DNA from: Candidatus Gemmiger stercoripullorum
GTDB lineage: Bacteria; Bacillota; Clostridia; Oscillospirales; Ruminococcaceae
Assembly (NCBI GenBank): GCA_019119365.1
Contig: DWXD01000069.1
Coordinates: 1-59,024, forward strand
Reading direction: 5' to 3'
Length of the DNA stretch: 59,024 nucleotides
The position numbers and the translations under genes are program-made. This document shows positions 23,340-31,160 of the stretch, one piece after another. The notes under the pieces are model-generated. The model was not told the DNA's origin. It worked only from the letters and a program-made list of their open reading frames with translations, and did not search any database. Each line of letters starts with the position of its first letter. The first letter of the stretch is position 1.

Positions 23340-23373
23340 GCCGCCGTGCTCCCAAAAAGTGCGGCGGCTTTTT
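23340..23373 (+). terminator. Terminator downstream of the GH13 gene
   Basis: GCCGCCG (23340-23346) pairs with CGGCGGC (23362-23368), followed by TTTTT. Confidence 0.7.
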
Positions 23374-23377
23374 GCAT

Positions 23378-23407
23378 GCAAGTTTTCAACCCTTCCTGCA
23401 CATACTG
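23378..23407 (+). promoter_or_regulatory. Possible forespore (sigma-F/G type) promoter of spoIVB
   Basis: GCAAG (23378-23382), 18-bp spacer, CATACTG (23401-23407). This is near the sigma-G pattern GHATR-N18-CATNHTA, with one mismatch in each box. spoIVB is sigma-G-controlled in Bacillus subtilis. No good sigma-A promoter is visible at this place. Tentative. Confidence 0.35.
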
Positions 23408-23440
23408 TGCGGTGAACAACACAAAGGGGAGGCGAAAGCC

Positions 23441-24661
23441 TTGCATCGCATACAACGAAAAAAGCGGCGTTTCAGCGCGCTGGCGGCGCTGGTTTTGGCG
23501 GCGCTGGCCGCGTGGGGCGCGCTGCGCGCCGCCGTGCCGGATACGCTGTATCTGGAGCCCGGCCGCCCGCTCACGCTCGCTTCGCTGCCGTTTCTGCAAG
23601 CGGGCGCACCGGCAGCGGACGCCGCCGCACCCGCGGCCAGCACAGCCACCGGCGGCAGCCAAAACACGACGCTGCGCCTGTTCGGCGTGCTGCCGATCAA
23701 AACGGTGCGCACCGTGCAGGCAGCGCGGCGCACCGTCCTGGTCAGCGGCGCGCCGTTCGGCGTCAAGATGCTTGCCGACGGCGCGCTCATCGTCGCTTTT
23801 TCGGACCAGCACACCGCCCTCGGGGCCGAGAACCCGGCCAAGGCGGCCGGGCTGCGCCTGGGCGATCTCATCGTCTCGGCCGGCGGCGTGCCGGTGCGCG
23901 GCAACGCCGACTTGACCGCCGCCGTCACAGCGGCCGCCGGCCGGCCGCTGACGATCGAATACCAGCGCGGCGGCGCGCAGTGCACCGCCACGCTGACCCC
24001 GGTGGCCGACCGCGACACCGGCGCATGGCGCGCAGGCGTCTGGGTGCGGGATTCCTCCGCCGGGATCGGCACGCTGACCTTCACCGACCCGGAACACGCC
24101 ACCTTCGCCGGGCTCGGCCATGCCGTCAGCGATACCGACACGGGCGAGGCGTTCGCGCTGCTCTCGGGCGAGATCGTGCCTGTCGCCATCCGCGCCGTGC
24201 GCAAGGGCGCGGCCGGGTCCCCCGGCGAGCTCAGGGGCGAATTTTCCGGCACGGCCATGGGCACGGTGCGCGCCAACGACGCGACCGGCGTCTATGGCGT
24301 GCTGACCGGCGCGGCGCCCGCGGGCGAAGCCCTGCCCGTCGCAAATATTCAGGAGGTCGCGCCCGGCGACGCCGAGATCCTCGTCACGCTGTCCGGCACG
24401 GAGCCGCAGCGCTATGCGGTGCGCATTGAGCGCGTCGACCTCACCGCCGCCGACCCCAACCGCAACCTGCTGCTGCGCGTGACCGACGAGCGCCTGCTGC
24501 AAACCACCGGCGGCATCGTGCAGGGCATGAGCGGCAGCCCCATTGTGCAAAACGGCAGGCTCGTCGGGGCTGTGACCCATGTGCTCGTCAACGACCCCGC
24601 GCGCGGTTACGGCATCTTTGCGGCCACCATGCTGGAAAAAGCCGACGCCGCCGCGGGCTGA
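23441..24661 (+). CDS. spoIVB: SpoIVB peptidase
   Basis: A forespore-secreted serine peptidase (MEROPS S55) that triggers sigma-K activation by cleaving SpoIVFA. The 406 residues begin with an N-terminal membrane anchor (about 10-30), then a PDZ domain (about 95-190, with AAGLRLGDLIVSAGG). The S55 peptidase domain shows GLGHAVSDTDTG (His) and GMSGSPIVQNG, with the catalytic Ser at about 366. Start chosen at TTG 23441 because AAGGGGAGG lies 8 bases upstream; an earlier in-frame ATG sits next to the preceding terminator and lacks a ribosome site. The gene is adjacent to spo0A, as in Bacillus. Its presence supports a sporulation-capable lineage, not proof of sporulation. Confidence 0.92.
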   Translation: MHRIQRKKRRFSALAALVLAALAAWGALRAAVPDTLYLEPGRPLTLASLPFLQAGAPAADAAAPAASTATGGSQNTTLRLFGVLPIKTVRTVQAARRTVLVSGAPFGVKMLADGALIVAFSDQHTALGAENPAKAAGLRLGDLIVSAGGVPVRGNADLTAAVTAAAGRPLTIEYQRGGAQCTATLTPVADRDTGAWRAGVWVRDSSAGIGTLTFTDPEHATFAGLGHAVSDTDTGEAFALLSGEIVPVAIRAVRKGAAGSPGELRGEFSGTAMGTVRANDATGVYGVLTGAAPAGEALPVANIQEVAPGDAEILVTLSGTEPQRYAVRIERVDLTAADPNRNLLLRVTDERLLQTTGGIVQGMSGSPIVQNGRLVGAVTHVLVNDPARGYGIFAATMLEKADAAAG

Positions 24662-24719
24662 ACGCCGCGTTCCGGGCGCAAACCTGTCGCCCGGTTCCGG
24701 CGCAAACACGGGCGAAAAC

Positions 24720-24827
24720 GGTCGAAGCCGGTCTGCCCGGCGCAAACGCGGGCGGGAAGTGTCGAAAGAAAACGAAATTTTTAGGTTGCCAGAATTGGTA
24801 ATTTATGGTAATATTTCCATTGTCGAA
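24720..24827 (+). promoter_or_regulatory. Spo0A-binding (0A) boxes upstream of spo0A
   Basis: Exact TGTCGAA occurs at 24760-24766 and, as TTGTCGAA, at 24820-24827. A one-mismatch GGTCGAA lies at 24720-24726. One exact box is upstream of the -35 and the other lies around the expected start of transcription, a layout suggesting autoregulation. Confidence 0.65.
24786..24814 (+). promoter_or_regulatory. Sigma-A-type promoter of spo0A
   Basis: -35 TTGCCA (24786-24791), 17-bp spacer, -10 TAATAT (24809-24814). Confidence 0.65.
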
Positions 24828-24882
24828 ACGATCACGCGGCCAGCCGCACAAAGCTGTATTTTGCAACGAGGAGTGTATCACA

Positions 24883-25641
24883 ATGGAGAAGATCAAGTTC
24901 CTGATGACCGATACCGGCGCACAGATCACGCCCCTGTGCCGCCAGGCGCTGGAGGCCAAGGGCGTGCAGGTGACGGTGTGCGAGAAAAACGGCGCCAAGG
25001 CCCTGCGCGCTTTGCTGGAGGAGCACCCGCAGGCGGCGCTGCTCGACGCCTTCATGCCGGACCTGGACGCCATCACGGTCAAGCAGCGCTATGAGGCGCA
25101 GGACACCTCCGGCGCGCGCACGACATTTTTTGTGACCGGCGCGTTCCAGAGCGAGGAGATCGAGCAGGAGCTGCTCGACAACGGCTTTTCCTTCTTTTTC
25201 GTCAAGCCGTTTGACGAGACGGTGCTTGTCAGCCGCGTGCTCAAGGCGGCCGGCGGCCCGGCGCGCCCGCAGCCGCTCTCCCAGGACAGCGATGAACTGA
25301 CCGTCACCGAGATCCTGCACCAGGTCGGCGTGCCCGCGCACATCAAGGGCTACCAGTTCCTGCGCGACGCCATCCTGCTCGCCGTCGGCGACCACGAGTA
25401 CATCAACGCCGTCACCAAGCGCCTGTACCCGGAGATCGCCAAGCGCAACAACACCACCGCCTCCCGCGTCGAGCGCGCTATCCGCCATGCGATCGAAGTC
25501 GCCTGGGACCGCGGCGACGTCGATACGCTCAACAGCTACTTCGGCTACACCATCCTCAGCATGCGCGGCAAACCGACCAATTCGGAGTTCATCGCCATGA
25601 TCGCCGACAAAATCCGCCTGGACAAGCGCCGCCGCGCCTGA
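24883..25641 (+). CDS. spo0A: Sporulation master regulator Spo0A
   Basis: A response regulator controlling entry into sporulation and stationary-phase genes. The 252 residues have a receiver domain (1-120) with phospho-acceptor D55 (LLDAFMPD), T85 and K108 (VKPFD). The acidic pocket has D10 but T11 in place of the second Asp (LMTDTG). The effector domain is almost textbook: [34 protein letters not shown] (recognition helix) and [17 protein letters not shown]. Start at ATG 24883 after GAGGAG; the longer frame would begin ahead of the promoter -10. Gene order spoIVB-spo0A is conserved in endospore formers. Confidence 0.95.
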
Positions 25642-25718: not shown

Positions 25719-25953
25719 GCTGCCGGGGCGCTGTGCCGGATTTTACAATAACTTTACCAAAACATGACGCGCGGCTGGTGGATGGCGCTTCCTGCGGTCT
25801 GTTATCATAAAATAGAAAAGTTCTGCCCTTGTGCAAAATAAAAAAGCCAAGCCCCCGTTTTTGAACCGGCTGCGCCGTATCCTACGGTAGTGCACGGGCG
25901 AAATAAAAACACGGACGCGCAAAAAGCGCGTAAGGGGGCGGAGAGGAAGCACC
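25719..25953 (+). promoter_or_regulatory. Intergenic control region of sigI-rsgI
   Basis: An AT-rich stretch without a gene, between the spo0A terminator and sigI. It holds TATCATAAAAT around 25803, which has no convincing -35 partner, then an A-rich run (25836-25846) directly upstream of the candidate sigma-I promoter at 25852-25882. Confidence 0.5.
25852..25882 (+). promoter_or_regulatory. Candidate sigma-I promoter, copy 1 (sigI operon)
   Basis: CCCCGTTTTTG (25853-25863), 11-bp spacer, CCGTATCC (25875-25882). Near-identical motifs recur at 27597-27628 and 27702-27733. The ACCCC-like upstream box and CGTA-like downstream box fit the general form of SigI promoters (C-rich -35, CGWA -10). 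An A-rich tract precedes it. Confidence 0.6.
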
Positions 25954-26688
25954 ATGGTACGCACCGAGAACGATGTCGTGCGCGCGGTCTACGCCGCAAA
26001 AACCGACCCTGCCGCGGCCGACGCTTTTGTGGAACAGTACATGCCGTTCGTGCGCAGCGAGACGGTCAAGTTCACCCGCGCCGCCATCGAGGCCGGCCAC
26101 GAGGATGAGCTGAGCGTCGCCCTGCTGGCTTTCTATGAGGCAATTTTGCACTATGAGCAGGGCCGCGGCGCGTTTTTCCCCTTTGCGGCGCGCGCCATCC
26201 GCAACCGCCTGATCGACCACTACCGCGCCGAGCGCCGCCACCGCGGCCACGCTTCGCTGCAGGAGACCGGCGGCGAGGACGGCCGCGAATTCGGCGATAC
26301 GCTGCCCGATACGCGCGACGGCATTGCGGACAGCGACCTGCGCCTGGCCAGCCGCCAGGAGATCGCCGCGTTCGGCGCGCAGCTGGCGGAGTTCGGCATC
26401 ACCTTTTCCGACGTGGCGGACAACTGCCCCAAGCAGGACCGCACGCTGGCCGCCTGCCGCCGGGTGCTGGACCATGCGCGCAGCGCGCCGGAACTGCTCG
26501 ACCGGCTGGTGCAGACCCGGCGGCTGCCGGTGGGCGAGCTGGTGCTGGGCAGCGGCGTTGACAAAAAGACCATCGAACGCCACCGCAAGTATCTGGTGGC
26601 CATCCTGCTGGCTTTTACCAACGGGTACGAGATCATCCGCGGGCATCTGTGCCAGATCGCCCCGCAGGGAGGGAGGCGCACGGCATGA
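25954..26688 (+). CDS. sigI: RNA polymerase sigma factor SigI
   Basis: A SigI-family (sigma-70-like) alternative sigma factor of 244 residues. The region 2 equivalent is [18 protein letters not shown] and [20 protein letters not shown] (about 50-95), with the FITFxE..-type conserved C-terminal domain seen as [18 protein letters not shown] (about 147-165) and a second HTH near [13 protein letters not shown] (about 207-220). Start at ATG 25954 after GAGAGGAAG. It overlaps rsgI by 4 bases. SigI factors in Bacillus and Clostridium respond to heat or polysaccharides through membrane-bound RsgI. A promoter-like motif shared with the downstream lipoprotein gene suggests it drives its own operon. Confidence 0.9.
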
Positions 26689-27497
26689 ACTATCTGGTGC
26701 TGGAAACGCACCCGGCCTATGCGGTGCTGCTGGATGAACGCGGCCGCTTTGTCAAGGCGGCCAACCGCGGCTACCGGGTGGGCGACCGCGTGCAGGACCC
26801 CGTGCTGCTGCAGGCGGCCGGGCGCGCCGTCCCGTTCCGCTTTGCCGCCGCGGGCGGCGCGCTGGCCGGGCTGGCGGCCTGTTTCTGCCTGGTATTTTTC
26901 GGCTACTACCAACCCAACTTTACGGCCTACGGCACGCTGCGGCTGCAGATCAACCCGGAAGTGGAGCTCGCGCTGAGCCGCACCGACCGGGTACTTTCGC
27001 TGCGCCCGCGCAATGCGGACGGCGCGGCGCTGATCGAAGGCTGCGACCTTGCCGGGCAGACCGGCGCGCAGGCGGCCGATATACTGGTGGACCGCGCCTT
27101 TGCGCTGGGGTATCTCGAGGACGGCGGCGCGGTGGCGGTGGACGTTCTGGGCGGCGACGAGGAATGGCAGGCCGAGACCGGCAGCAGCGTGCAGCAGGTT
27201 CTGGAAACGCATTACGCCGAAACGATTGTTGTGTATCTGGGCGAAATGCCGCCCGAACCCACGCCGTCGCCGGTTGTGTCCCCCACGCCTTCCCCCGCGC
27301 CTACACCTTCGCCAACGCCTTCACCCTCGCCTTCGCCAACGCCTGCCCCTACACCGGTCCCGACACCGCCGCCAACGCCCGCGCCAACGCCCGCGCCGGT
27401 CGTGTGGGACGATGATGACGATGATGATTGGGACGACGACTGGGACGATGATTGGGATGACGATGACGACTGGGATGACGATGACGACGATGACTGA
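26685..27497 (+). CDS. rsgI: Anti-sigma factor RsgI with Pro/Thr linker and Asp/Trp tail
   Basis: A membrane-spanning anti-sigma factor of 270 residues. The cytosolic RsgI_N domain (1-50, [19 protein letters not shown]) should hold SigI. One membrane helix spans about 52-74. The extracytoplasmic domain (about 80-188) contains [10 protein letters not shown]90-P91 matches the site where RsgI proteins self-cleave during signalling. A Pro/Thr/Ser linker (about 189-238) then leads to a tail of only Asp and Trp (241-270, pattern W-D3 to W-D7). Known RsgI proteins carry carbohydrate-binding or enzyme domains at this end, so the Asp/Trp tail is an unusual candidate sensor. It overlaps sigI by ATGA. 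Confidence 0.88.
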
Positions 27498-27768
27498 TCG
27501 CTCCGCAGCGTCCATACATACAGCAGAATAACAGTACGGCGCGCCCTGGCGAGGAAGCCAGGGCGCGCTGCGCAAAAAAATAAAATTTTTGCCGCGACCC
27601 CGTTTTTGCCCCGGCAGGCGCCGTAATCTTCCGGTGTAAGCAAAACAAAAGGGCGCGGCCCGCTGCGGGCGGCGGAAAAAGGAGAAAAAATTTTCACGCC
27701 GACCCCGTTTTTGCGGCCCCGGGCTCCGTATCCTGCCAACAAAAGAAAAACAAAAGGAGATGACCCAA
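27498..27768 (+). promoter_or_regulatory. Intergenic control region with hairpin and two tandem sigma-I-like promoters
   Basis: After rsgI a 12-bp perfect hairpin (GCGCGCCCTGGC 27539-27550 with 27557-27568) is followed by A-rich sequence, not a T-run. Two copies of the promoter motif follow in tandem: ACCCCGTTTTTG (27597-27608), 12 bp, CCGTAATC (27621-27628); and ACCCCGTTTTTG (27702-27713), 12 bp, CCGTATCC (27726-27733). An A/T-rich stretch precedes each. AAAGGAG (27753-27759) serves the ATG at 27769. Confidence 0.6.
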
Positions 27769-28863
27769 ATGAAAAAGACCATGACCCTTACCCTGACCGT
27801 CCTGGCGCTGAGCGCCGCTTTCACACTGAACGCCTGCGGTAATGCGGCGGCTTCGGCGGCGCCGTCCGTTCCGGCGCAGGAGGCGGCCGCTCCCGCGCCC
27901 ACGGCGCTGCCCACCGTGGCCCCGGCGCCGCTGCCCGCCGGTACCGTGCTGCTGAGCGTCAACCCTGAGATCGAAATGGAGTATGACGGCGGCGGAAACG
28001 TTATGGCCTTAAACGGCCTGAACGACGACGGCCGCGCGGTGCTGAACGCTTACAGCGGCTATGAAGGCCGCCCCTGCGCCGAGGTGGTGGGCGAGCTGGT
28101 CGGCCAGATCGACGCGGGCGGCTATTTTGACGAGACCATCGGCGGGCAGGAGAAAAACATCGTTCTGCGGCTGGAAAGCGGTTCCGGCGCCCCGGCCGGT
28201 TTTCTGGACGGTCTGGCCGATGCGGCCCGCAGCACCGTCGAAACGCGGCAGATCGGCTCGCAGACCATGACGCTGGACGGCGACGACATGGACGACGCCT
28301 ATGCCGCGCAGGGCTACATCAGCGCCGGTGCGGCCGAGCAGCTGCTGGCGGCCCAGCTGGCGCGGGACGACCTGCAGTTCGTTGAGCGCGACTACGACCT
28401 GGAGGACGGCGATTATGAAATCGCCTTTGTGGCAGACGGGATCGAGTACGAGTTTGAGGTCGACGCCCGCACCGGCAAAGTGACCGAAATGGAAGCCGAA
28501 GGCCGCGAGAGCTGGGAGGACCACTGGGACGACGACTTGGACGACCAGTACGACGACTGGGACGACCAGTACGACGACTGGGACGACCAGCACGACGACT
28601 TGGATGACCAGTACGACGACTTGGACGACCAGTACGACGACTTGGACGACCAGCACGACGACTGGGATGACCAGTATGACGATTGGGATGACCAGTATGA
28701 CGACTGGGATGACCAGGACGATGACTGGGATGACCAGTATGACGATTGGGATGACCAGGACGACGACTGGGACGACCAGGACGATGACTGGGATGACCAG
28801 GACGACGACTGGGACGACGATGACGACGATTGGGATGACGACGATGACGGTGACGACGACTGA
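27769..28863 (+). CDS. Lipoprotein with RsgI-like domain, PepSY-like domain and Asp/Trp heptad repeats
   Basis: A 364-residue exported protein of unknown function. The signal peptide ends in a lipobox-like LNAC (C23). A Pro/Ala linker leads to a domain (about 58-165) resembling the RsgI extracytoplasmic domain, including LLSVNPEIEM (N65-P66). A PepSY-like domain follows (about 183-245, ending DARTGKVTEMEAEG). Residues 257-364 are heptads of [W/L]DDQ[Y/H/D]DD, about 15 in a row, turning into pure W and D at the end. The start is ATG 27769; an upstream in-frame ATG overlaps the AAAGGAG site. It shares its tail style and motif domain with RsgI upstream, so the proteins probably work together. 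Terminator at 28902. Confidence 0.8.
   Translation: MKKTMTLTLTVLALSAAFTLNACGNAAASAAPSVPAQEAAAPAPTALPTVAPAPLPAGTVLLSVNPEIEMEYDGGGNVMALNGLNDDGRAVLNAYSGYEGRPCAEVVGELVGQIDAGGYFDETIGGQEKNIVLRLESGSGAPAGFLDGLADAARSTVETRQIGSQTMTLDGDDMDDAYAAQGYISAGAAEQLLAAQLARDDLQFVERDYDLEDGDYEIAFVADGIEYEFEVDARTGKVTEMEAEGRESWEDHWDDDLDDQYDDWDDQYDDWDDQHDDLDDQYDDLDDQYDDLDDQHDDWDDQYDDWDDQYDDWDDQDDDWDDQYDDWDDQDDDWDDQDDDWDDQDDDWDDDDDDWDDDDDGDDD
28537..28860 (+). repeat. 21-bp tandem coding repeat (about 15 units)
   Basis: Units of the form TTG/TGG GAC GAC CAG TAC GAC GAC encode the heptads [L/W]DDQYDD of the lipoprotein. Neighbouring units differ by single bases, and the last units change CAG to GAC. Such a track is prone to length change by slippage. 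Confidence 0.9.
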
Positions 28864-29078: not shown

Positions 29079-30206
29079 ATGCCAGCCACAGTCACAGCCA
29101 TTCTGGTCGCCGCCGGTGCGTCGCGGCGCATGGGGTTTGATAAACTCAGCTACCGCCTGCCCGGCGGGGCCACTGTTTTGGAGACAAGCCTGCAGGCGTT
29201 CGCCGCCCACCCGCGCGTGGGGCAGATCGTGCTGGTCGCCGGGGCCAACCTTGAAAGCTGCCGCGCGCTGGCCGCCCGCTGCGCCAAGCCCTGCACGGCC
29301 GTGCCCGGCGGGGCCACCCGCGCCGACAGCGTGCGCGCCGGGCTTGGCGCGGCCACCGGCGCGCTGGTCGCCATCCACGACGCCGCCCGCCCGTTTGTCA
29401 GCGAGGCGGTCATCACGGCGGCGCTCGAAGCCGCCGAACGCTGCGGCGCCGCTGCGCCCGCCGTGCCGGTCAAGGATACCATCAAAATCGCCGATGCCGC
29501 CGGTCAGGTGCAGCAAACGCCCGACCGCGCTTCGCTGTTCGCGGTGCAGACGCCCCAGTGCTTCTCCCGCGCGCTTTACCTGCAGGCGCTCGCGCGTGTG
29601 CAGGGCGACAAAGCCCGCCTTGTCACAGACGACTGCAGCCTGTTCGAGCTGGCCGGGTTCCCGGTCACGCTCACACAGGGCGATTACGCCAATCTGAAGA
29701 TCACGACCCGCGAGGATCTGAAAGGGGAAAGAACGATGCGTTTTGGACATGGATATGACGTCCACCGCCTGGTGGAGGGCCGCCGCCTGATCCTGGGCGG
29801 GGTGGACATCCCGTATGAGAAAGGCCTGCTCGGCCATTCGGACGCCGACGTGCTGCTGCACGCCGTGGCCGACGCGCTGCTCGGCGCGGCCGCCCTCGGC
29901 GATATCGGCCAGCATTTCCCGGACAGCGACCCGCGCTACAAAGGGGCCGACTCGCTCAAACTGCTGCAGGCCGTGGGGGACATGCTGCGCAAGGCGGGCT
30001 ACACGGTCGGCAACATCGACGCCACCATCCTCTGCCAGGCGCCCAAGCTCGCGCCCTACATCCCCCTCATGCGCCAGAACATCGCCGCCTGCCTGGGCAT
30101 GGACGTCGGCCGCGTCAGCGTCAAAGCCACGACCGAAGAACACCTCGGCTTCACCGGCGCGGGGCAGGGCATTGCGGCGCACGCCGTGGCGGGCATCGAA
30201 GCGTAA
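29079..30206 (+). CDS. ispDF: Bifunctional IspD-IspF of the MEP isoprenoid pathway
   Basis: One 375-residue chain joins two non-consecutive MEP-pathway enzymes. The IspD half (about 1-218) makes CDP-methylerythritol and shows [15 protein letters not shown] and KDTIK. The IspF half (about 220-375) makes MEcPP and shows GHGYDVHRL (metal D and H), [19 protein letters not shown] and a [10 protein letters not shown] end. Fusions of this kind occur in several bacteria. The IspF part starts with its own Met, preceded by AAAGGGGAAAG (about 29721-29731), so separate IspF could also be made. A TATAAT lies at 29006-29011 without a good -35. Confidence 0.92.
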
Positions 30207-30257
30207 GCCCCGCCTTTCGCCCCGCTCAAATCTGCCCGGAAGGAGACTGTGCCCGCC

Positions 30258-31160
30258 ATGTACGCTGCCAACGAATTTTTCAACAACGTCGTCAGCAACC
30301 TGCGCACGTTCCGCCTGCGCGACCTGATCGACATTCTTGTGATCTCGTTCGTCTTTTACGAGATCTTCCAGTTTGCCCGCAAATCCCGCGCCGGTCAGCT
30401 TGTGCGCGGCGTTGTGCTGCTCATCGTCAGCTTTGCGCTGGCCTACCTGCTGGAGCTGCGCACCGTGCGCTGGGTGCTCAACAACTTCCTGCAGATCGGC
30501 TTTATCGCGGCCGTTGTGCTGTTCCAGCCGGAGCTGCGCCGCGCGCTTGAACGTCTGGGCCAGAACACCAACTGGGCCGGGATGTTCAACCTGCGCCGCA
30601 GCGACCCGTCGCTGCGCGGCGTGTGGCAGAACGCCGTCGTCGCCATCTGCGACGCGGCCGAGCAGCTTTCGGACACGCGCACCGGCGCGCTGATGGTGTT
30701 CGAGCGCAACAACAACCTGGATGAGATCATCCGCACCGGCACGCCGCTTTCGGCCAACGTCATCCCGGAAATGCTCGGCACCATCTTTTATGAGGGCACG
30801 CCGCTGCACGACGGCGCGGTCATCATCCGCGACGGGCGCATCGTTGCGGCCGGGTGCGTGCTGCCGCTGTCCAACAACCTGGAAATGGGCAAGGACATGG
30901 GCACCCGCCACCGCGCGGGCCTCGGCATGAGCGAAAATTCCGACGCCATTGTCGTCGTCGTCAGCGAGGAGACCGGCATCATCTCAATGGCCAAAAACGG
31001 CGTGCTGATCCGCCGGCTGGACCGCCAGAACCTGTTCAACCTCCTGCAGGAGGAGATCATCCCGCCGGAGGACGAAGCCGAGCAGAAGAAAGAGGCCCCC
31101 TGGGCCAAATGGTTCAAGAAAGGAGGCGACGGGAAGCATGCCGCTGAACAAAAAGCCTGA
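30258..31160 (+). CDS. cdaA: Diadenylate cyclase CdaA
   Basis: A membrane-bound synthase of the second messenger c-di-AMP. The 300-residue protein has three N-terminal hydrophobic segments (LIDILVISFVFYEIF, GVVLLIVSFALAYLL, FLQIGFIAAVVLF), a short coiled stretch, and the DAC domain with catalytic DGA (LHDGAVI, about 184) and RHR (GTRHRAG, about 217). A charged C-terminal tail follows. ATG 30258 is chosen; an alternative GTG at 30249 is closer to GGAAGGAG than is usual. It overlaps cdaR by 23 bases, the standard cdaA-cdaR pair (glmM is not adjacent here). c-di-AMP controls K+ transport and osmotic balance, linking this gene to trkAH in the same window. Confidence 0.94.
   Translation: MYAANEFFNNVVSNLRTFRLRDLIDILVISFVFYEIFQFARKSRAGQLVRGVVLLIVSFALAYLLELRTVRWVLNNFLQIGFIAAVVLFQPELRRALERLGQNTNWAGMFNLRRSDPSLRGVWQNAVVAICDAAEQLSDTRTGALMVFERNNNLDEIIRTGTPLSANVIPEMLGTIFYEGTPLHDGAVIIRDGRIVAAGCVLPLSNNLEMGKDMGTRHRAGLGMSENSDAIVVVVSEETGIISMAKNGVLIRRLDRQNLFNLLQEEIIPPEDEAEQKKEAPWAKWFKKGGDGKHAAEQKA

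Follow-up and report, generated by a model that had tools for sequence, protein, structure and literature searches.

A 59,024-nucleotide stretch of DNA (hereafter, the window) from Candidatus Gemmiger stercoripullorum (contig DWXD01000069.1 of assembly GCA_019119365.1; GTDB lineage Bacteria; Bacillota; Clostridia; Oscillospirales; Ruminococcaceae) contains a three-gene locus predicted to encode a sigma factor of the SigI type, its membrane anti-sigma factor RsgI, and a lipoprotein (Table 1). All identities and circuit claims below, for the window and its relatives alike, rest on sequence and models, and searches of the window's own genome reach as far as its assembly (2.2 Mb, 90% complete). 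A preliminary description, drawn from the DNA letters, had proposed a SigI-RsgI-lipoprotein locus, and this was borne out by the match of the first product to SigI6 of Clostridium thermocellum and by RsgI_M domains on both outer proteins.

The sigma factor aligns with SigI6 over residues 17-233 and with the C-terminal chain of SigI1 (PDB 6ivu) over residues 132-230; sigma region 2 and the SigI-specific C-terminal domain are both present. Scores against the NCBIfam SigI models were below the curated cut-offs (at best 154.5 bits versus 306; 144.2 versus 185 for TIGR02895), and the protein appears to be a divergent SigI relative. Its gene overlaps rsgI by four bases, the rsgI ATG overlapping the sigI stop codon.

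The AlphaFold model of RsgI (mean predicted local distance difference test score, pLDDT, 84) contains a single long hydrophobic helix and matches Bacillus subtilis RsgI (PDB 8t9n). The self-cleavage domain RsgI_M, which we take to be the domain also called SEAL, carries an Asn-Pro site in the context INPEVEL. A profile of 34 RsgI sequences matched 8t9n with an E value of 1.6e-8 and the C. thermocellum structures 8hep, 8u9o and 8her with E values of 5.6e-7 or better, and these three chains align from their first residue at the Pro of the Asn-Pro site; 8heq and 8hdj do so as well, but with an E value of 0.11. The RsgI_N family (PF12791) scored 15.3 bits on the window protein (cut-off 25) and found nothing at E 0.001 in a whole-genome search, while a Foldseek comparison of the model with the N-terminal domain of RsgI1 (6ivs) gave an E value of 0.021 and a probability of 1.00. 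A Pfam scan revealed no carbohydrate-binding family after RsgI_M in this protein. The Asp/Trp-only tail was modelled with block-mean pLDDT values of 50-74 and without secondary structure. Self-cleavage at Asn-Pro and protease-dependent release of SigI are predicted.

The lipoprotein has an N-terminal signal with a lipobox, predicted from an alignment of 28 lipoproteins in which Cys23 is invariant. Pfam recognised a second RsgI_M domain (2.4e-13), and both the family profile and the model of the lipoprotein matched 8t9n (4.5e-7 and 1.8e-5, respectively). The RsgI and lipoprotein domain families matched each other in an hhalign comparison (E 1.4e-24; 24% identity over 97 columns), and the Asn-Pro pair is retained in 151 of the 153 domains detected by a profile for which Asn-Pro-bearing members had been used but which did not demand the site itself. 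In the lipoprotein model, pLDDT falls below 50 in 123 of 364 residues, mostly in the tail and at the N-terminus. Tandem Repeats Finder reported 14.8 copies of a 21-nucleotide unit with 88% matches in the tail-coding array. Synonymous per-site differences are in excess among the 13 repeat units (pS/pN ca. 8), and a DNA pattern for DDWDDD, allowing at most one mismatch, had seven matches in the whole assembly, all of them within rsgI and the lipoprotein gene, while the reversed pattern had none. We therefore conclude that the repeat tail did not arise by chance.

Most of the architecture given in the preliminary description thus stands: for RsgI, the membrane helix, the Asn-Pro domain, the Pro/Thr linker and the tail made only of Asp and Trp; for the lipoprotein, the PepSY-like domain; and for both, the shared Asn-Pro domain, with structure prediction giving the 8t9n fold for each, and acidic tails, predicted to be disordered from low model confidence and lack of structure. 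The repeat array was also confirmed, with exact heptads slightly fewer than the 15 or so counted before. An intact Asn-Pro domain and a strongly negative, predicted disordered tail are common to the two proteins, whose outer regions have net charges of -26 (RsgI) and -77 (lipoprotein).

Table 1. Positions of the genes and features of the locus in the window
Feature	Position	Strand	Basis and remarks
SigI-type promoter of sigI-rsgI, CCCCGTTTTT-N13-CGTA	25853..25879	+	pattern match, CCCC -35 and CGWA -10
sigI	25954..26688	+	sigma factor, 244 amino acids; SigI6 7.3e-25, SigI1 4.2e-21; Sigma70_r2 3.2e-9
rsgI	26685..27497	+	membrane anti-sigma factor, 270 amino acids; RsgI_M 5.9e-16; Foldseek to B. 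subtilis RsgI 1.1e-6
RsgI membrane helix, residues 51-79	26835..26921	+	AlphaFold-model helix, hydrophobic by eye
RsgI self-cleavage domain (RsgI_M; SEAL-type), residues 82-185	26928..27239	+	Pfam, profile and model matches
N90-P91, predicted self-cleavage site	26952..26957	+	several solved RsgI chains start at the matching Pro
Pro/Thr linker of RsgI	27243..27404	+	sequence
RsgI Asp/Trp-only tail, last 30 residues (25 Asp, 5 Trp)	27405..27494	+	sequence
First SigI-type promoter of lipoprotein gene	27598..27625	+	pattern match
Second SigI-type promoter of lipoprotein gene	27703..27730	+	pattern match
Lipoprotein gene	27769..28863	+	364 amino acids, start taken at 27769; acceptor Cys23 (predicted)
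N65-P66 in lipoprotein RsgI_M domain	27961..27966	+	sequence, alignment
PepSY domain, residues 205-242	28381..28494	+	3.6e-6; family profile matches PDB 9vy3
13 exact heptads [WL]DDQ[YHD]DD in acidic tail (tail about 28510-28860)	28537..28809	+	low model confidence

Acidic tails and promoters in related loci

A scan for relatives yielded 49 RsgI proteins, mostly labelled Oscillospiraceae, Flavonifractor and similar gut genera. For a second sample, we chose 20 regions among the RsgI_M matches within the family to which the window belongs; this sample partly overlaps the first (L126 is L006 again, and L132 is L039; L numbers denote relatives' loci, a few of them own-genome promoter matches, and G numbers denote genomes). 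Of the 40 complete RsgI proteins that carry a non-tail search peptide, 38 (all but L019 and L030) have an acidic tail, with Asp+Glu making up 40% or more of the final 40 residues. Sixteen proteins with an RsgI-type N-terminus were present in the second sample; one (L134) is cut by the contig. C-terminal to the domain, the Asp+Glu content is 24-62% in 14 of the remaining 15 and 18% in L138. We therefore conclude that an acidic tail is usual in these RsgI relatives, and that the Asp/Trp-only form is one type. The preliminary description had overlooked that such tails are not peculiar to this locus.

Counting the window, 39 of 50 loci have a recognisable lipoprotein gene downstream of rsgI. Seven of the remaining 11 end inside rsgI or within 300 bases of it; in L037, L042, L044 and L048, more than 4 kb follow rsgI and our script recognised no lipoprotein. 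The tail compositions of the two proteins were compared after incomplete lipoproteins and L039, in which the lipoprotein frame runs out, had been left out. Within-genome matching gave a Mantel r of 0.81, and a partial r of 0.61 after RsgI-core distance (28 pairs), a result reached in 0 of 5000 permutations. When 15 of 40 pairs from both samples were removed as near-duplicates, the last 60 residues of the remaining 25 pairs gave r 0.46 and partial r 0.44, again with 0 of 5000 permutations. The two tails of a genome thus match in composition beyond relatedness.

The tails could be unstable, functionless simple repeats produced by low-complexity drift. The arrays are repeat-rich, and in L039 (3600-5423) the lipoprotein array leaves its frame and the reading frame runs on into the VTC gene of the next position, which reflects either an assembly fault or repeat-length instability. 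The occurrence of acidic tails in 38 of 40 relatives, the pS/pN ratio among the window's units and the match between the tails of two genes all argue the other way, and drift is very unlikely.

Several loci depart from the common layout in other ways. The lipoprotein of L139 (3239-4822) has four PepSY stretches joined by Asn/Thr linkers and no acidic tail. A protein of L048 (6001-7008), labelled Tissierellia, has an Asp/Trp-rich tail in addition to RsgI_M and two PepSY stretches, and no SigI frame was found before it by the script; L048 enters neither the promoter counts nor those on the tree. L043 and L047, labelled Olsenella, which we take to belong to Actinomycetota, carry the locus described here with Asp/Trp tails and lack the promoter pattern of the others. 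Horizontal transfer is possible in this case.

Published SigI promoters have a -35 element of CCCC plus an A-tract and a -10 element of CGAA or CGTA (excerpts of PMC6056542 and PMC10575876). The pattern CCCCG[GT]TTT-N13-16-CGTA was found in 34 of 39 rsgI-lipoprotein gaps versus 1 of 7800 shuffles; the gaps without it are those of L016, L027, L036, L043 and L047. Upstream of sigI, a site with an A- or T-tract was present in 38 of 49 loci versus 6 of 2400 shuffles, with the wider pattern set only after inspection of the sequences; a T-tract-only pattern matched 4 of 45 loci versus 5 of 2250 shuffles. In the window's own genome, the strict pattern had eight sites, three of them at the locus, versus six for the reversed pattern. 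The genomes of 15 relatives contained 63 sites versus 45 with the reversed pattern. Of the 63, 27 lie elsewhere and 36 at the locus, where 15 precede sigI and 21 the lipoprotein gene. None of these strict scans, own genome or relatives', revealed another convincing SigI target. The own-genome candidates that were considered and rejected lie between converging gene ends (L057), inside a reading frame (L061, matched by one pattern version only), near a contig end (L093), without a fitting gene start (L092, L094) or before a frame without a Pfam match (L095). The preliminary description had placed the lipoprotein in the circuit, in agreement with the two SigI-type promoters that precede its gene, and had overlooked its apparent role as a transcriptional target of SigI. 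The lipoprotein appears to be the main or only detectable SigI target, so that the regulon is apparently closed.

A receptor and an output with alike tails would fit a homeostatic loop in which the tails bind metals or cationic peptides, RsgI reads the free ligand and the lipoprotein soaks it up. The charges of both outer regions (-26 and -77) agree with this, as does the more negative charge of the lipoprotein tail in 26 of 28 pairs (all except L019 and L041). Against it, the tails of the scanned proteins contain no convincing known domain and no metal-binding family, and the five off-locus promoter matches in the window's own genome are at background level in number, with no recognised transporter or resistance gene seen behind them. 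We consider such a cation sensor with a sink improbable.

The CotH-kinase module and tail motifs

In 22 loci, a CotH kinase gene follows the lipoprotein gene, and in 21 of them VTC (poly-phosphate polymerase type) and DUF4956 genes lie in between (the module families were confirmed on one example each). L028 has CotH alone, and in L039 VTC continues the lipoprotein frame; in 16 loci the VTC match starts two bases past the lipoprotein stop. An N-terminal hydrophobic stretch, which would put the catalytic part of CotH on the side of the tails, was found in 19 of the 20 loci tested out of these 22, and the miss, L039, is probably due to a misplaced start. The pattern [TS][DNGA]Y occurs in both tails of all 22 module loci (7-22 copies in the lipoprotein and 3-13 in RsgI) and in neither tail of all nine assessable module-free loci (L006, L007, L026, L027, L040, L043, L047, L049 and the window), a comparison without those loci in which the contig stops at the lipoprotein gene or close to it. 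No VTC, DUF4956 or CotH gene follows the lipoprotein gene in the window. CotH was not found in the 90% complete genome of the window, nor in the genomes of L007, L026, L027, L040, L043, L047, L049, L016, L036 and L042.

The RsgI tail type of 22 further genomes was set before CotH was searched for (a 23rd, G134, was omitted for its truncated tail). CotH was present in 14 of 15 genomes with motif tails versus 3 of 7 without (Fisher p 0.02). Two of the 14 matches, in G258 and L005, are divergent or fragmentary. The three motif-free genomes with CotH are G112 (a fragment), G248 (a divergent match; its module has no RsgI_M next to it within the 9 kb analysed) and G191. The latter has two SigI-RsgI systems (L159, L136): the first comprises a lipoprotein and a CotH module and has motif tails, and the second has a plain Asp tail, with neither lipoprotein nor module seen in the stretch analysed; the stronger of the two CotH matches lies in the motif-tailed copy. 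In a tree of 59 RsgI cores, from which L023 and L045 were left out as the contig end cuts their RsgI, the module changes at least five times and the tail type at least eight times, and the two agree in all 36 rows where both are known. Thus, the Thr/Ser-x-Tyr content of the tails goes with a CotH-kinase module that was not found in this genome, a link overlooked in the preliminary description. The motifs are probable CotH substrates.

A wider claim would be that the locus is a SigI-controlled surface-phosphorylation system: VTC and DUF4956 would make polyphosphate or another phosphoryl donor and pass it across the membrane, membrane-anchored CotH would phosphorylate the acidic Thr/Ser-x-Tyr tails of RsgI and the lipoprotein, and the charge state of the tails would determine how the self-cleaving domains respond to force or ions. 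A natural kinase-free version would then exist in the window lineage, with the permanent negative charge of the Asp/Trp tails replacing phosphorylation. As a whole, we hold this to be rather unlikely. A known parallel is the B. subtilis spore coat, where CotB and CotG, with Ser/Lys/Arg repeats, are shown to be phosphorylated (excerpt of PMC7821199). As there, a CotH kinase is encoded beside genes for proteins with low-complexity repeats; unlike CotB and CotG, the repeats here are acidic, the proteins are predicted to be membrane-bound, and phosphorylation is a prediction.

The preliminary description had suggested that the acidic tail may read cations, cationic peptides or a surface polymer. 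As one such polymer, Pel, reportedly cationic (it is so described in the title of one paper), was considered because pel clusters carry a similar set of CotH, poly-phosphate polymerase and DUF4956 genes. For almost every genome we dropped this idea: of 46 searched, a single one (G274, which belongs to the window's genus) had a PelG match above the cut-off, another two matches were weak, and PelG was not found in the window's own genome. The three families are accessory genes of Gram-positive pel clusters (excerpt of PMC7112168), which the 21 relatives' loci with CotH, VTC and DUF4956 after the lipoprotein gene resemble; they differ in the near absence of PelG and in that the genes lie behind a SigI-type promoter, and in the window genome CotH was not found.

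Candidate circuits

Tentatively, and with a chance that we put a little short of even, we favour a closed-loop SigI/RsgI circuit by which a disordered polyanionic surface layer is both sampled and renewed. We regard this reading as the likeliest because the regulon is seemingly closed, the tails are matched and B. subtilis provides a model. RsgI and the lipoprotein would both be cut at Asn-Pro, their halves being kept together by the fold, and the tails would build a polyanionic layer, either at the wall or within it. Stimuli that exert a pull on this layer or rearrange it (wall gaps, polycations or surfaces) may separate the cut halves of RsgI, after which a membrane protease would release SigI by regulated intramembrane proteolysis. 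SigI would then renew the lipoprotein, so that the sensor would itself be a sample of the layer under its control. The operon behind the same promoter appears, in many relatives, to include VTC, DUF4956 and a membrane-anchored CotH, with the Thr/Ser-x-Tyr repeats as likely phosphorylation sites. The window lineage, in which module and motifs were not found, would carry its negative charge as Asp with interspersed Trp, and Trp may add stickiness. We infer the signal, the force step and the phosphorylation. Separation of the RsgI halves in B. subtilis involves force.

Several observations weigh against the polyanionic-layer loop. L139 has an acidic RsgI tail beside a lipoprotein without one, and module-free lipoprotein tails keep 1-13 Tyr (seven in the window, within the heptads and without adjacent Thr or Ser). 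The link between motifs and CotH is imperfect: a single divergent CotH occurs in L006 and likewise in G151 and G220, which share the window's genus, the L037 and L044 genomes carry CotH with motif-free RsgI tails, and L038 has motif tails and no CotH found in its assembly. The state of the neighbouring module had been established beforehand in 4 of these 22 additional genomes (L137, L138 and L145 with the module, L142 without it), and minus these the counts for CotH become 11 of 12 versus 3 of 6 (p 0.08). Independent pairs on the tree number two on well-supported branches, both of which agree, and five on all branches, too few for significance. Strict promoter scans and a 90% complete assembly would miss targets with divergent promoters. 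The force step leans on work in B. subtilis, and for every member of the proposed circuit the case is built from sequence.

In B. subtilis, RsgI is constitutively cut and its two halves come apart when the wall is damaged; the disordered region has been proposed to extend into the wall, where it would sense gaps or other defects (excerpts of PMC10202637, PMC13059805 and PMC10128001). The tails might, by analogy, be generic wall-gap sensors, that is, long disordered probes whose chemistry is unimportant and which match through the shared wall. Their low model confidence and lack of predicted structure agree with such a probe. A chemistry-blind probe does not predict that tail composition is matched beyond relatedness and tied to the CotH module, and we judge this explanation unlikely, if a serious possibility. 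The lipoprotein might also act as a feedback competitor, its self-cleavage domain recapturing the exposed RsgI strand and resetting the switch, with the tail serving only for co-location. The same domain, with an intact Asn-Pro, is indeed found on the sole detectable SigI target. The two domain families are only 24% identical over 97 columns, and the long tail and the CotH link are left unexplained; such a competitor is highly doubtful.

The proposed loop resembles the cell-wall stress system SigI-RsgI of B. subtilis in its sigma/anti-sigma pair, self-cleavage domain (8t9n) and disordered outer region. We know of no partner lipoprotein of that system. The B. subtilis SigI pathway upregulates lytE and mreBH (excerpt of PMC10128001), unlike the locus described here, whose sole detectable target is a lipoprotein with the domain and the kind of tail found in RsgI. 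With the polysaccharide-sensing RsgI proteins of C. thermocellum it shares RsgI_M with Asn-Pro (8hep, 8her, 8hdj, 8u9o), and its promoters resemble the CCCC plus A-tract and CGAA/CGTA elements of C. thermocellum SigI promoters (excerpt of PMC6056542). Most C. thermocellum RsgI sensors have carbohydrate-binding or similar domains (excerpt of PMC12203970), unlike the acidic tail without a recognised domain seen here. In the open-licence literature, we found no relevant account of SigI with a PepSY lipoprotein, or of an Asp-rich lipoprotein with an anti-sigma factor. If the polyanionic-layer loop is correct, the SigI-RsgI mechanism, so far tied to wall gaps and to plant polysaccharides, would extend to gut bacteria with matched acidic tails on the sensor and the sole detectable target, and the VTC-DUF4956-CotH gene set would gain a candidate substrate and circuit. 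Two questions become testable: the role of the chemistry of a disordered sensor tail, and the targets of CotH-like kinases outside the spore coat.

In the window, spoIVB and spo0A lie upstream of the locus (23372-25641), and ispDF and cdaA lie downstream (29079-31160). A 47-nucleotide tandem repeat of 2.7 copies is present at 2579-2705.

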